DNA of 64,000 bases. Origin: Gammaproteobacteria bacterium. Lineage in GTDB: Bacteria > Pseudomonadota > Gammaproteobacteria > Magnimaribacterales > Magnimaribacteraceae. Location: contig SGZM01000003.1 in assembly GCA_004214065.1 (NCBI GenBank), positions 1 to 64,000 of the forward strand, in the 5' to 3' direction. The notes under the pieces are model-generated. The model saw nothing but the letters and a program-made list of their open reading frames with translations, made no database searches and had not been told where the DNA came from. The translations under genes and the position numbers were made by a program. How positions within the stretch are numbered: the stretch's first letter is position 1; the number at the start of each line of letters is the position of its first letter. Positions 15,634-22,605 of the stretch are shown piece by piece.

Positions 15634-16845
15634 ATGAACTTTGAGCACACACAAAAAACGAAAGAGATAATGGGCCTTGTCTCAAATTTCATTGAGAATA
15701 AGGTTAAACCAAATGAGCAAGAATATTCTAATGCCATGATATCTTTCAGGGATTCAGGAAATCCTTGGCAGGTACCGAAGGTTTTATATGAGCTAAAACA
15801 AGAAGCAAGAGAGCTAGGTTTGTGGAATTTTTCATTAACTGGAGATTTAGGCTATGGATTAACCAATTTGGAATTCGCACCATTAGCAGAAATGATGGGA
15901 GTAGGATGGACATCTGAAGTTTTTAATTCTTCAGCTCCTGATGCTGGGAATATGGAAGTGCTCGATAAATATGGCAGTGACTATCAGAAAGATAAATGGC
16001 TGACTCCTTTGCTGTCGGGTGAAATAAGGTCTGCATTTGCTATGACTGAACCAAATGTCGCGTCTTCAGATGCAACAAATATTTCAAGTACTATCAAAAA
16101 AGATGGCGATGAGTATGTCATTAATGGAGAAAAGTGGTGGACATCCGGCTACGGAAGGCCTGATTGTAAGTTTATGATTTTTATGGGGGTCTCTAATCCA
16201 GATGCTCCAAAGCATCAAAGACAATCACAAATTATCATCCCGAAAGATACTCCAGGTATCACACTCAAGCGAATGCTAACTGTTTACGGTGCAGATCATG
16301 CTCCAAATGGTCATGCACATTTAGTCTTTGATAATGTAAGAGTACCTAAAGAAAATATGATTCTAGGGGAGGGAAGGGGCTTTGAAATAGCACAAGGAAG
16401 ATTGGGGCCTGGAAGAATCCATCACTGCATGAAGATTATCGGAGCTGCGGAACTGGCTCTTGAGTTACTCTGTAAAAGAGCATCCTCACGTAAAGCTTTT
16501 GGTAAAGCTATAGCTGAACTAGGTGGTAATTATGATGTTATTGCCAAATGTAGAAATGAAATTGAGATGTGCCGACTTCTTACTTTGAAAGCTGCCTATA
16601 TGATGGACACTCTTGGCAATAAGAAGGCAAAAAGTGAAATCGCTCAACCCAAAGTAGAGGTGCCAAGTATGGCTGTTAGGGTTATTGAAAGGGCAGTGCA
16701 GATTCACGGTGGCGCCGGAGTCTCTCAAGATACACCTTTGGCAAGTCTATACAGTTCTATAAGGTATTTAAGAATTGGAGATGGGCCAGATGAAGTTCAT
16801 TTAAGAACCATAGCAAAGGAAGAGTTAAGTAAATATTCTGATTAA
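15634..16845 (+). CDS. Acyl-CoA dehydrogenase of the ACAD10/ACAD11 type
   Basis: A 403-residue acyl-CoA dehydrogenase. Distinctive stretches such as SAPDAGNMEVL near residue 106, SAFAMTEPNVASSDATN near 130, KWWTSGYGRPDCK and GRLGPGRIHHCMK match the ACAD10/11 branch rather than classical short-chain FadE proteins. In that branch (including bacterial LvaC) the enzyme works after phosphorylation of a hydroxyacyl-CoA, with phosphate elimination. An LvaA-like kinase is encoded at 30569. Pairing of the two is inference. Alone on its strand, divergent from the amidase. Confidence 0.88.
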   Translation: MNFEHTQKTKEIMGLVSNFIENKVKPNEQEYSNAMISFRDSGNPWQVPKVLYELKQEARELGLWNFSLTGDLGYGLTNLEFAPLAEMMGVGWTSEVFNSSAPDAGNMEVLDKYGSDYQKDKWLTPLLSGEIRSAFAMTEPNVASSDATNISSTIKKDGDEYVINGEKWWTSGYGRPDCKFMIFMGVSNPDAPKHQRQSQIIIPKDTPGITLKRMLTVYGADHAPNGHAHLVFDNVRVPKENMILGEGRGFEIAQGRLGPGRIHHCMKIIGAAELALELLCKRASSRKAFGKAIAELGGNYDVIAKCRNEIEMCRLLTLKAAYMMDTLGNKKAKSEIAQPKVEVPSMAVRVIERAVQIHGGAGVSQDTPLASLYSSIRYLRIGDGPDEVHLRTIAKEELSKYSD

Positions 16846-17111
16846 GAATTTAAGCTTTTATCGATCTTTGTAGATTTAATAGAGAGCATTTTATTAGCAA
16901 ATTCCATTTCTTTATCTGCGTTTAGCTTGTTAAGCTTAAATTGCTCGGAGTCTTGTGTAGCTATAATTATTCTTCCTGAATCGGTATCAAGCCTAATACT
17001 GTCTGTTTTGAAGATTTTATTCTTTTTAGAAATCACAATTGCTTCTAATTCATTATTAAGGTCTTCTGTATGACAGCCTTCTATAAGTTTTTTTAATTCT
17101 TTTAATTTCAT
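16842..17111 (-). CDS. Unknown protein (89 aa)
   Basis: A charged, lysine-rich protein without signal peptide or membrane helix. The middle (EAIVISKKNKIFKTDSIRL, then GRIIIATQDSE) looks like a small beta-rich fold. I recognise no family. Its end overlaps the acyl-CoA dehydrogenase stop by four bases tail to tail. A TAAAAT hexamer seven bases before its ATG supports independent expression. Confidence 0.6.
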   Translation of the reverse strand: MKLKELKKLIEGCHTEDLNNELEAIVISKKNKIFKTDSIRLDTDSGRIIIATQDSEQFKLNKLNADKEMEFANKMLSIKSTKIDKSLNS

Positions 17112-17118
17112 ATGTGTA

Positions 17119-17124
17119 ATTTTA
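17119..17124 (-). promoter_or_regulatory. Putative -10 element of the 89-aa gene
   Basis: TAAAAT on the reverse strand ends seven bases before the ATG at 17111; no Shine-Dalgarno sequence. Leaderless pattern. Confidence 0.35.
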
Positions 17125-17157
17125 CTAGAGATAGTTCATATATGACAGCGTTGTCTT

Positions 17158-17565
17158 TTATATGAAGTTTGTTGAAAGGTTCTTTATAGTAAACAGATCA
17201 ACCTCTTTGGTTTTTATATTGTATTTAGGATGATTAATACCTGCATAGAGCATTTTCTGATTCACAAGATCTTCAATCATCAACCTGTCAAGCTTGAAAA
17301 TTAATTCTTCTTCAGAAGAATTATCATTCTTCTTTTCTCCATAGACTCTTAAGTTTTCTCCAATTTGTATCCATACCTTATTTTCTATTTCAGAGAAATT
17401 TAAATATATGGTCTTAGAGTTTTTTGAGTCAGTATCATGAAAAAGTAATTTTGCAGTAAGAATATCTTTTGAATCTTGAGACAAAGATGAATCTTTAAAA
17501 GAGAGAGATACTCTCTCTCCAATATGGATTAGCCAGTCTTTAGAATTCTCAATATTACTAGACAT
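17158..17565 (-). CDS. Unknown protein (135 aa)
   Basis: A soluble, acidic protein with no signal peptide, membrane helix or cysteine motif. Alternating hydrophobic stretches (KTIYLNFSEIENKVWIQIG, LRVYG) suggest a beta-rich domain followed by a helix (EEELIFKLDRLMIEDLVNQKM). No family recognised. It lies 46 bases upstream of the 89-aa gene on the same strand, and the two may be expressed together. It faces away from the riboswitch-controlled operon. Confidence 0.6.
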   Translation of the reverse strand: MSSNIENSKDWLIHIGERVSLSFKDSSLSQDSKDILTAKLLFHDTDSKNSKTIYLNFSEIENKVWIQIGENLRVYGEKKNDNSSEEELIFKLDRLMIEDLVNQKMLYAGINHPKYNIKTKEVDLFTIKNLSTNFI

Positions 17566-17682
17566 ATCTATAAGCTTTAATTAATGGTTGTTTATTTAGG
17601 CGGGCAATGTAATTTTACTATTATTTCATCATTAACACTATCTGTTACTCACATCGAGTCTAGTTTTCTTATTATTTTTTGC

Positions 17683-17688
17683 TAAAAT
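17683..17688 (+). promoter_or_regulatory. Extended -10 promoter of the riboswitch operon
   Basis: TGCTAAAAT (17680-17688) is an extended -10 element. Transcription would start near 17695, just before the first strand of the aptamer P1 helix. No good -35 is visible, as expected for an extended -10 promoter. Confidence 0.45.
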
Positions 17689-17695
17689 TGAGGCA

Positions 17696-17774
17696 CTGCA
17701 AAGGGGTGGCTTTAGCCTGAGATCATTGAAACTCTTTGAACCTGATCCATACAATAATGGCGGAGGAATTGCAT
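17696..17774 (+). promoter_or_regulatory. TPP (THI-box) riboswitch
   Basis: The conserved thiamine pyrophosphate aptamer is present in order: AAGGGGTGGC, the P3 arms GGC/GCC, CTGAGA, TTTGAACCTGATCC, and the 3' element GGCGGAGGA. P1 forms between TGCAA (17697-17701) and TTGCA (17769-17773). The 3' P1 strand includes the A of the start codon, and the ribosome-binding GGAGG (17762-17766) is itself part of the conserved aptamer core. TPP binding should directly hide the ribosome site, without a separate expression platform. It controls the TonB receptor and PnuC-type genes. Confidence 0.93.
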
Positions 17775-19857
17775 GCTAAAACGTATATTTTTATTTTCTT
17801 TTTTATTCTTTTTTCAATTTTCTATTCAATCTAAAGTTATTGAAGAAATTGTAGTTATTGGAGATTGGCGAGATACAACCCTAAAAGATGCTGATAGTAG
17901 TCTGGTTTTGATAACTGATGAGGATATAAGAAAAAATCAATACAAACATTTTGAAGAAATTACTTATTCAGTCCCTAATCTTAATTTTGCTGCAAGTGAC
18001 TCCAGGCCAAGATACTTTCAGATAAGAGGAATAGGCGAACGCTCAGGATACGAAGGCACTCCAAACTCTTCAGTTGGTTTCTTAATCGATGATATAGATT
18101 TTTCTGGTCAGGGTGGCATTGCTTCAACATATGATATCGATCAAGTTGAAGTTTATAGAGGTCCTCAAGGTTCAAGAATGGGAGCAAATGCTCTTGCCGG
18201 AATGGTTTACATCAAGACAAAAGATCCAGAGAGTTTTTTTGATGCTAGTGGAGTTATAACTTATGGAGATTATGGCAGGAGAGATCTAGGCGCCTTAATC
18301 AATATCCCTTTAAGTGAAACCATCAGATCTAGATTGAGTATAAAAAGAGAAGATTTTGATGGTTTTAGGAAGAATTTATTTCTTGGCAGATCAGATACCT
18401 CAAGGAAAGATGAAGAGTCTATTCGATTCAAAACCAAATGGTCCATCAATACGAATTCTTCTTTAGATTTAGTTTACTTTAATAACAATTTTAATGACCC
18501 CGCTGATATCTGGACCATTGATAACTCACTAAATACACTCTCAGACAGGCCGGGTATGGACTCTCAGGATTCACGTGCCCTTGGAATCAATTATCAATAT
18601 GAAAATACTTTTAACACTTTTAAGGTTCTCTATTCTAAGACCGATACCGATGTGGTCTTTAGTTATGACGCTGACTGGGGCAATACTGCATCACATGATC
18701 CTTATGTTTATGACTATTTTTCTGAAACCATAAGGGATAGAGAAACATCAAATTTAGAGTTTAGAATATTATCTAATTCTTCTTTGGATCGAAGATTTAA
18801 TTGGATATTAGGGTTTTCTTTGTATGAAGTTGATGAATCAAATAATAAGAAAGATGACGGAGCTTACGGAGATCCATTTGATGGATATGGAACTTTTTAC
18901 AGTGAATCTTTTTTCTCCAGTAACTATTCATCTGAGAGCAAATCTCTTTTCGGAAATATTGATTACTCATTTAATGAAAAAGTAACACTATCGATTGGTA
19001 TGAGGAGGGAAGATTGGAATGCAGATTATTATGACTCTAATAAGGAATTATTTCTACCTGATGATTTGATGAATGGAGGTAAAATTTCGCTTACAAATAA
19101 ACTAACCAGGGATTCAAGAACCTATCTAAGTATTGCAAAAGGTTATAAACAGGGAGGTTTTAATTTAGGAACCGGTTTCAATAATTCTAATCTAGTAAGA
19201 GCTATTTCTTTTTTCCCAGAATACCTTACAAATTATGAATTTGGATTTAATCGATATTTTAAATCTCAAGAAACTTATATTGATTTAGTTCTTTTCTACT
19301 CTGACAGAAAAGACCAACAAGTTCTTTCATCTATCCAAGTTGATCCACAAGACCCTAATACATTTTTATTTCTTACTAGCAATGCTGCAGAAGGTGTTAA
19401 TTATGGAGCGGAGGTGAGTATAAACTCGGATATTTCAGATACTTTAAACGCTTATCTAAATTTAGGTTTATTAAAAACGGAAATAAGGAATTATTCATCA
19501 AGACCAGATTTAGAAGGCAGGGAGCAAGCCCATGCACCAAGTTATAGTTTTTCAGTTGGTTTAGGTTGGGAAATATCTAATAATCTAGAATTATTGATTA
19601 ATCTTTCAGGAAAGAATGATTTCTATTATTCAGATTCTCACGACAATACTTCAGATGACTATATTTTGACCAACATTAATTTTATTTACGAAGAAGATAA
19701 TATAAACCTTAATTTCTGGGTCAGAAATTTATTTGATAAATACTATTCACTTAGAGGGTTTTATTTTGGAAATGAGCCTCCTAACTTTGAAGACACTTTG
19801 TATGAACGTCATGGAGATCCTCGTAATTATGGCATATCACTTACTTATAATTTCTAA
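17773..19857 (+). CDS. TonB-dependent outer-membrane receptor, probably for thiamine or a precursor
   Basis: A 694-residue receptor. Signal peptide (residues 1-20), a TonB-box-like IEEIVVIG at about 23-30, plug domain with YFQIRGIGERSGYEG and VEVYRGPQGSRMGANALAG (residues 75-140), then a 22-strand-type barrel ending in YNF with the terminal Phe typical of outer-membrane proteins. The TPP riboswitch at its start and the PnuC-type transporter directly after it (no spacer) indicate uptake of thiamine or a related compound across the outer membrane. Exact ligand is inference. Confidence 0.92.
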   Translation: MLKRIFLFSFLFFFQFSIQSKVIEEIVVIGDWRDTTLKDADSSLVLITDEDIRKNQYKHFEEITYSVPNLNFAASDSRPRYFQIRGIGERSGYEGTPNSSVGFLIDDIDFSGQGGIASTYDIDQVEVYRGPQGSRMGANALAGMVYIKTKDPESFFDASGVITYGDYGRRDLGALINIPLSETIRSRLSIKREDFDGFRKNLFLGRSDTSRKDEESIRFKTKWSINTNSSLDLVYFNNNFNDPADIWTIDNSLNTLSDRPGMDSQDSRALGINYQYENTFNTFKVLYSKTDTDVVFSYDADWGNTASHDPYVYDYFSETIRDRETSNLEFRILSNSSLDRRFNWILGFSLYEVDESNNKKDDGAYGDPFDGYGTFYSESFFSSNYSSESKSLFGNIDYSFNEKVTLSIGMRREDWNADYYDSNKELFLPDDLMNGGKISLTNKLTRDSRTYLSIAKGYKQGGFNLGTGFNNSNLVRAISFFPEYLTNYEFGFNRYFKSQETYIDLVLFYSDRKDQQVLSSIQVDPQDPNTFLFLTSNAAEGVNYGAEVSINSDISDTLNAYLNLGLLKTEIRNYSSRPDLEGREQAHAPSYSFSVGLGWEISNNLELLINLSGKNDFYYSDSHDNTSDDYILTNINFIYEEDNINLNFWVRNLFDKYYSLRGFYFGNEPPNFEDTLYERHGDPRNYGISLTYNF

Positions 19858-20445
19858 ATGATATCTATTGAAAGTCTTGCAGTCTTCTTGGCAATTCTTT
19901 ACCTGTTACTGGCAGTTAAGCAAAATATTTTTTGCTGGCTAGCTGCCATCTTGAGTGCAACTCTATATTTTTCTGTTATGTACTCAGCTGGATTATATAT
20001 GGAGGCTTACTTACAAATATTTTATGTGGGTATGGCAGTCTATGGATGGTCTCAATGGAACTCTGCAGAAAAACCTCTATTGGTAAGAAGTTGGAGTAAA
20101 ACTAATCATTTAAAAGCAATAGGGCTAATTTTATTCTTAACCTTACTATCAGGGTATTTATTAGAAACTTATACCGAAGCTGCATTACCATTTTTTGATG
20201 CTCTAACCACCTGGGGCGCAGTTGTAGCTACCTATATGGTAGCTAAGAAATTAATAGAAAATTGGATCTATTGGTTCGTTGTAGATTTGATCTCTGTATT
20301 CCTTTTTTTAAATAGAGATTTATATTTAACTGCTGGTTTATTTATTGTCTATTTAATTATTATAGTTTTTGGCTACAAGACATGGAAAAAATCAATGATA
20401 GAAAATAAAAACGGAGCTGCTGATAGTAATCGGCAACTCCGTTAA
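19858..20445 (+). CDS. pnuT: PnuC/PnuT family vitamin transporter (thiamine likely)
   Basis: A 195-residue inner-membrane protein with about seven helices. Family motifs are GWSQW (residues 63-67), TTWGAVVATYMVAKKLIENWIYW (conserved WxxxD/N region) and WFVVDLISVFLF. PnuC relatives carry nicotinamide riboside, riboflavin or thiamine; here the TPP riboswitch upstream makes thiamine the best guess (PnuT). Its ATG follows the receptor stop directly. The last codons (ELQ-like tail GAADSNRQLR) lie inside a terminator hairpin. Confidence 0.88.
   Translation: MISIESLAVFLAILYLLLAVKQNIFCWLAAILSATLYFSVMYSAGLYMEAYLQIFYVGMAVYGWSQWNSAEKPLLVRSWSKTNHLKAIGLILFLTLLSGYLLETYTEAALPFFDALTTWGAVVATYMVAKKLIENWIYWFVVDLISVFLFLNRDLYLTAGLFIVYLIIIVFGYKTWKKSMIENKNGAADSNRQLR

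Positions 20446-20457: not shown

Positions 20458-22605
<2,148 letters not shown>

Follow-up and report, generated by a model that had tools for sequence, protein, structure and literature searches.

Introduction

How can a riboswitch control translation when nothing separates its ligand-sensing aptamer from the gene that follows? This question is raised by a locus on contig SGZM01000003.1 (assembly GCA_004214065.1) of a gammaproteobacterium belonging to the family Magnimaribacteraceae, order Magnimaribacterales (SAR86), where a thiamin pyrophosphate (TPP) riboswitch lies directly before the gene for a TonB-dependent receptor. The stretch analysed, hereafter the window, comprises the first 64,000 nucleotides of this contig, and all positions are those of the window. 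An earlier note, made from the sequence alone, had proposed that the aptamer contains the ribosome-binding site and part of the start codon, that no room is left for an expression platform, and that the promoter starts transcription right at the closing helix, P1.

Barrick and Breaker (2007) defined direct translation attenuation as the presence of a start codon within 15 nucleotides of the aptamer core, and reported that sequestration of the ribosome-binding site within the core is commonest in the TPP, pre-queuosine1 (preQ1) and S-adenosylmethionine (SAM-I) riboswitches; in the TPP and preQ1 classes the purine-rich 3' region acts as the ribosome-binding site, and for TPP the authors cite earlier comparative work (PMC2258182). 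We compared the window with related loci across its order and with TPP loci from other gammaproteobacteria. Our analyses indicate that the element is very probably an OFF switch that senses TPP and controls the initiation of translation directly, and that it represents an order-wide set of riboswitches sharing the same compact layout.

Results

The aptamer contains the ribosome-binding site and ends on the start codon

When the whole window was searched with cmscan, the sole Rfam match at the gathering threshold was to the TPP riboswitch family (RF00059; 17692-17785, forward strand). The match spans the full model (1-105) and its score of 56.7 bits passes the cut-off of 54.3, so that the covariance-model search bears out the identification made in the earlier note; the span named there, 17696-17775, corresponds to the paired core inside the match. 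The junction letters CUGAGA, GAACCUGAUC and GCGnAGG are all present, as are helices P1 to P5, P3 being short at 2 pairs. From membership of this family we infer that the RNA binds TPP and regulates the gene behind it.

With the family structure placed on the sequence, the Shine-Dalgarno motif GGAGG falls within the conserved 3' element of the aptamer and its AGG lies in P4, where C17741, C17742 and U17743 pair with G17766, G17765 and A17764 respectively (Table 1). The AUG occupies 17773-17775, after a gap of 6 nucleotides, and its A is the final nucleotide of P1, paired with U17697; the ribosome site and the first base of the start codon are both where the earlier note had placed them. Measured from the end of the aptamer core, the start codon is at distance 0, the limit for the class being 15 nucleotides. 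A fold of the window also extends P1 through the U and G of the AUG, GCAC pairing with UGC at 17774-17776 around a bulge; this extension was rejected as not conserved, since of the 109 relatives just 57 form pair 6 and 11 form pair 7.

Table 1. Features of the riboswitch locus, with the basis for each assignment.
Feature	Position	Strand	Basis
-10-like hexamer TAAAAT; with the immediately preceding TGC it resembles an extended -10	17683..17688	+	Read from sequence; kept in relatives
TPP riboswitch aptamer, RF00059 match	17692..17785	+	56.7 bits, E 1.9e-8
P1 5' strand (UGCAA)	17697..17701	+	Family structure placed on sequence; covariation in relatives
UUG able to pair with 17699-17701 as a 3-base-pair P2 extension, excluding P1; candidate internal antisequestor	17736..17738	+	RNAalifold; 105/109 relatives
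P4 5' strand CCU, partner of the Shine-Dalgarno motif	17741..17743	+	Invariant in 26/26 aligned relatives
Shine-Dalgarno GGAGG in conserved 3' aptamer element, AGG within P4	17762..17766	+	Sequence and family structure
P1 3' strand UUGCA, last base = A of AUG	17769..17773	+	Family structure placed on sequence
TonB-dependent receptor, 694 amino acids; putative thiamin receptor, Omr1/OMthi-like	17773..19857	+	PF07715, PF00593
PnuC-family transporter, probably PnuT	19858..20445	+	PF04973, E 9.4e-50; downstream of riboswitch in relatives too

The layout is conserved across the order

Of the 203 genomes of the order, 108 gave a TPP riboswitch match, at 109 places, and 95 gave none; scores exceed the RF00059 cut-off in 100 of the 108. 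An ATG that opens at least 80 codons is present between -5 and +3 nucleotides from the end of P1 at every one of the 109 loci, the rate of ATG upstream of the same loci being 0.7% per position, and because this placement is kept in 109/109 related loci, chance is ruled out as its cause. The A of the ATG is the last nucleotide of P1 at 80 loci, and the start lies at +2 in 27, at +3 in one and at -5 in one. Those starting at +2 are all the loci of one genus (27/27) and retain the U-A closing pair of P1, which must therefore be maintained for its own sake and not merely for the A of the AUG. Placing that A within P1 is not essential to the design, as one genus starts 2 nucleotides later.

The successive pairs of P1 form in 109, 106, 105, 105 and 106 of the 109 loci and a C-G to U-A double change is seen in five genera, figures to be read with the proviso that the shuffle controls for pairing and covariation do not remove the ancestry that the loci share. 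The alignment (A1) holds 26 of the 109 loci, hand-picked for variety. One locus stands out from the order (L023, in genome G022), having GGAGGGATGGCG, a degenerate P1 and an ATG that falls inside the aptamer, 5 nucleotides before the point where P1 usually ends. Another genome (G091) has two TPP riboswitch loci on different contigs (L045 and L056), possibly through a second copy or contamination.

A promoter-like hexamer precedes P1 at conserved spacing

Defining a -10-like hexamer as one with A at position 2, T at position 6 and at least 4 of 6 positions matching, we found one starting 12-18 nucleotides before P1 in 108 of the 109 related leaders; six control stretches of equal width gave 33, 35, 67, 31, 34 and 34 of 109. 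The promoter that the earlier note predicted to abut P1 is thus supported, and conserved at matching spacing across the order. Transcription usually starts about 7 nucleotides from the -10 element, and on this spacing the transcription start is predicted 1-4 nucleotides before P1; the leader would therefore be little more than the aptamer. A general promoter scan was discarded as uninformative because its sites were no more frequent than in shuffled sequence (10 promoter-like sites, 12.4 expected); TAAAAT at 17683-17688 was not among them.

The TA-rich hexamer that is found 33-39 nucleotides before P1 in 67 of the 109 leaders (L001-L109), compared with 31-35 in the other control stretches, may mark a -35 element or else a further promoter. 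Weak conservation was also seen about 18-28 nucleotides before the -10 in relatives.

The genes downstream point to thiamin uptake

The aptamer lies upstream of a TonB receptor gene and a PnuC-family gene, for both of which thiamin is the putative substrate. The ATG at 17773 opens 694 codons and begins a stretch that, judged by eye, resembles a signal peptide. The ATG of the PnuC-family gene directly follows the receptor stop, an abutment that suggests translational coupling of the two. In relatives, 7/7 sampled proteins downstream of the riboswitch matched the TonB plug family. A gene of this kind, omr1, has been reported with a nearby thiamin diphosphate (TDP) riboswitch in two SAR86 clusters (PMC10881298), and in Bacteroides OMthi and PnuT, both linked to TPP riboswitches, are described as thiamin transporters (PMC5613172).

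The family is represented by 35 genomes, many of them incomplete. The riboswitch was found in 27/35 and a PnuC-family gene in 27/35, and comparison of their places shows the two at one locus in 26 of the 27 genomes with a riboswitch. In G033, which gave no PnuC match, a contig ends about 2 kb from the riboswitch; G009 lacks a riboswitch match and has a PnuC fragment where one of its contigs ends. ThiC was detected in three of the 35 (G019, G021 and G034), none of which has a riboswitch or PnuC match. The gene pattern fits thiamin auxotrophs that regulate uptake. Restriction of ThiC to family genomes lacking both riboswitch and PnuC looks as if synthesis and import of thiamin replace one another.

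Beyond the transporter operon, a peroxidase-family gene (PF00141, KatG-like; 20458-22590, reverse strand) converges on it across a gap of 12 nucleotides.

The direct layout is a minority elsewhere in the Gammaproteobacteria

Among 90 TPP loci from other gammaproteobacteria, a sample that favours high-scoring loci because it comes from the upper part of a ranked list, 28 have some start codon between -8 and +15 nucleotides from P1 that opens at least 60 codons. These start codons were picked automatically from match coordinates and several choices look wrong: seven of the 90 are convincingly direct by eye (L123, L126, L143, L157, L162, L165 and L179), and most of the remainder of the 28 resemble in-frame extensions of genes whose likely start is downstream. 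The direct layout is a minority in the 90-locus sample and the rule in this order. Three of the direct-type leaders (L143, L162 and L123) precede short membrane proteins that by eye resemble SemiSWEET/PQ-loop transporters.

Mechanism and alternatives

The arrangement suggests the following mode of action. When cytoplasmic TPP is high, the ligand would lock an aptamer transcribed from a few nucleotides before P1; P4 would then hold the AGG of the Shine-Dalgarno motif and P1 the stretch that ends with the A of the AUG, the 30S subunit would be excluded, and the operon for the TonB receptor and PnuT-type thiamin uptake would be off. When TPP is low, the weak P1 of 5 base pairs would open and the ribosome could take the Shine-Dalgarno motif and AUG. 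Several observations weigh against this account. The RF00059 match in the window exceeds its cut-off by just 2.4 bits, and in 8 of the 108 riboswitch genomes of the order no match reaches the threshold. The modelled cost of exposing the Shine-Dalgarno motif and AUG has a median of 4.1 kcal/mol, and the AGG is predicted to be paired in P4 even with P1 open, its probability of being unpaired being 0.04-0.10 in a fold of 17695-17835. To reach the ON state the ribosome would therefore need to invade P4: the 30S subunit probably pushes P4 aside when it is no longer held by P1 and the ligand. On these models, the switch may not change cleanly between open and closed but instead compete with the 30S subunit.

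Were transcription the main output, with TPP causing termination near the start, either through Rho or intrinsically, and occlusion of the ribosome-binding site secondary, there would be a precedent in the thiC TPP riboswitch of Escherichia coli, where pausing and Rho termination accompany a block of translation (PMC5234074). We consider this quite unlikely for the present locus: a terminator scan found no terminator-like site in 16500-19500, no space lies between the aptamer and the gene, and in 26 relatives RNAalifold predicted the sequence 3' of the aptamer to be unstructured. The narrow margin of the RF00059 match would also suit a relic aptamer, or a true start further downstream, either of which would leave the overlap functionless; such an explanation is very unlikely indeed, given that the ATG position (109/109), P1, P4 and the promoter spacing are conserved across 108 genomes and that the signal-peptide-like stretch begins at ATG 17773.

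A further alternative arises within the aptamer itself. The earlier note left no room for an expression platform, and downstream of the aptamer this holds; within the aptamer, a competing pairing is available. Without TPP, the P1 5' strand at 17699-17701 could pair with the UUG at 17736-17738, freeing the start-codon strand, and binding of TPP would return the 5' strand to P1, giving a true two-state switch that needs no downstream platform. Such built-in strand exchange is possible and, on balance, doubtful. The extended P2 (A-U, A-U, C-G) is favoured over P1 by the RNAalifold consensus of 26 relatives, and it is possible in 105 of the 109 loci of the order, against 1 of 85 other gammaproteobacterial loci (five of the 90 were skipped, their landmarks not being found) and 0/11 AT-rich controls with a GC content under 40%; the 109 loci are of common ancestry, however, and their count is not independent. 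Four loci of the order lack the extension, as do the seven convincing direct loci outside it. Substitutions in P1 are compatible with both pairings (CAA, UAA or UGA against UUG), but the UUG is invariant in the order, with 0 double changes, so that no covariation is possible. In modelled energies, which leave out ligand and tertiary contacts and exclude one of the 109 loci because it contains an N, the two states are nearly equal: P1 and P4 together minus the P2 extension gives a median of 0.69 kcal/mol (range -4.67 to 3.42), and the P2-extension state is the lower in 73 of 104 loci.

Discussion

Direct translation attenuation has already been published for TPP, and the mechanism we favour is accordingly known; what is new is an order-wide set of members of this class in a very compact form. 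The earlier comparative TPP work cited by Barrick and Breaker is reportedly that of Rodionov in 2002. As in the TPP riboswitches assigned to that class, the ribosome-binding site here is the purine-rich conserved 3' end of the aptamer, the start is less than 15 nucleotides from P1 and there is no separate platform; the difference is that every one of the 109 TPP loci detected in this gammaproteobacterial order has the layout, and that in 80 the start codon enters P1 (PMC2258182). A similar logic applies to the direct occlusion group of SAM-II/V, SAM-III, preQ1-I and preQ1-II, in which the ribosome-binding site is part of the ligand-binding fold and the ligand blocks the 30S subunit, although these are other aptamer classes, mostly pseudoknots, and TPP is placed in that account among the strand-exchange riboswitches (PMC10907184). 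In E. coli thiC, too, a TPP aptamer hides the ribosome-binding site and AUG when OFF, but its anti-P1 pairing in the ON state uses a strand from a large downstream platform, whereas in SAR86 the aptamer itself may supply a competing strand (PMC5234074). The omr1/TDP riboswitch of the SAR86 clusters agrees with ours in kind of gene, riboswitch and clade, and the passages of that report dealing with it are silent on overlap with the ribosome-binding site or start codon (PMC10881298). Our searches, which covered open-access papers, turned up no account of either the overlap with the start codon in SAR86 or the P2 extension.

The P2 extension may be a new refinement, a built-in antisequestor. That the TPP riboswitches of SAR86 are complete two-state switches requiring no sequence outside the aptamer is somewhat unlikely, as is the alternation that this would entail, with the P1 5' strand pairing with the strand of the Shine-Dalgarno motif and start codon when TPP is bound and with the UUG of the P2-P4 junction when free. 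If it were so, transcription would start at one end of P1 and translation at the other.

In an ocean clade that is abundant and largely uncultured, a control unit of about 80 nucleotides thus brings together promoter, sensor, ribosome site and start codon, which abut or overlap one another. Most of the family's genomes seem unable to make vitamin B1 (ThiC in 3/35), and the direct block favoured here suggests that TPP feeds back directly on vitamin B1 uptake. The riboswitch offers a small, conserved model for the competition of ribosome and ligand over shared nucleotides, and likewise for asking if an antisequestor can be built into the aptamer itself.
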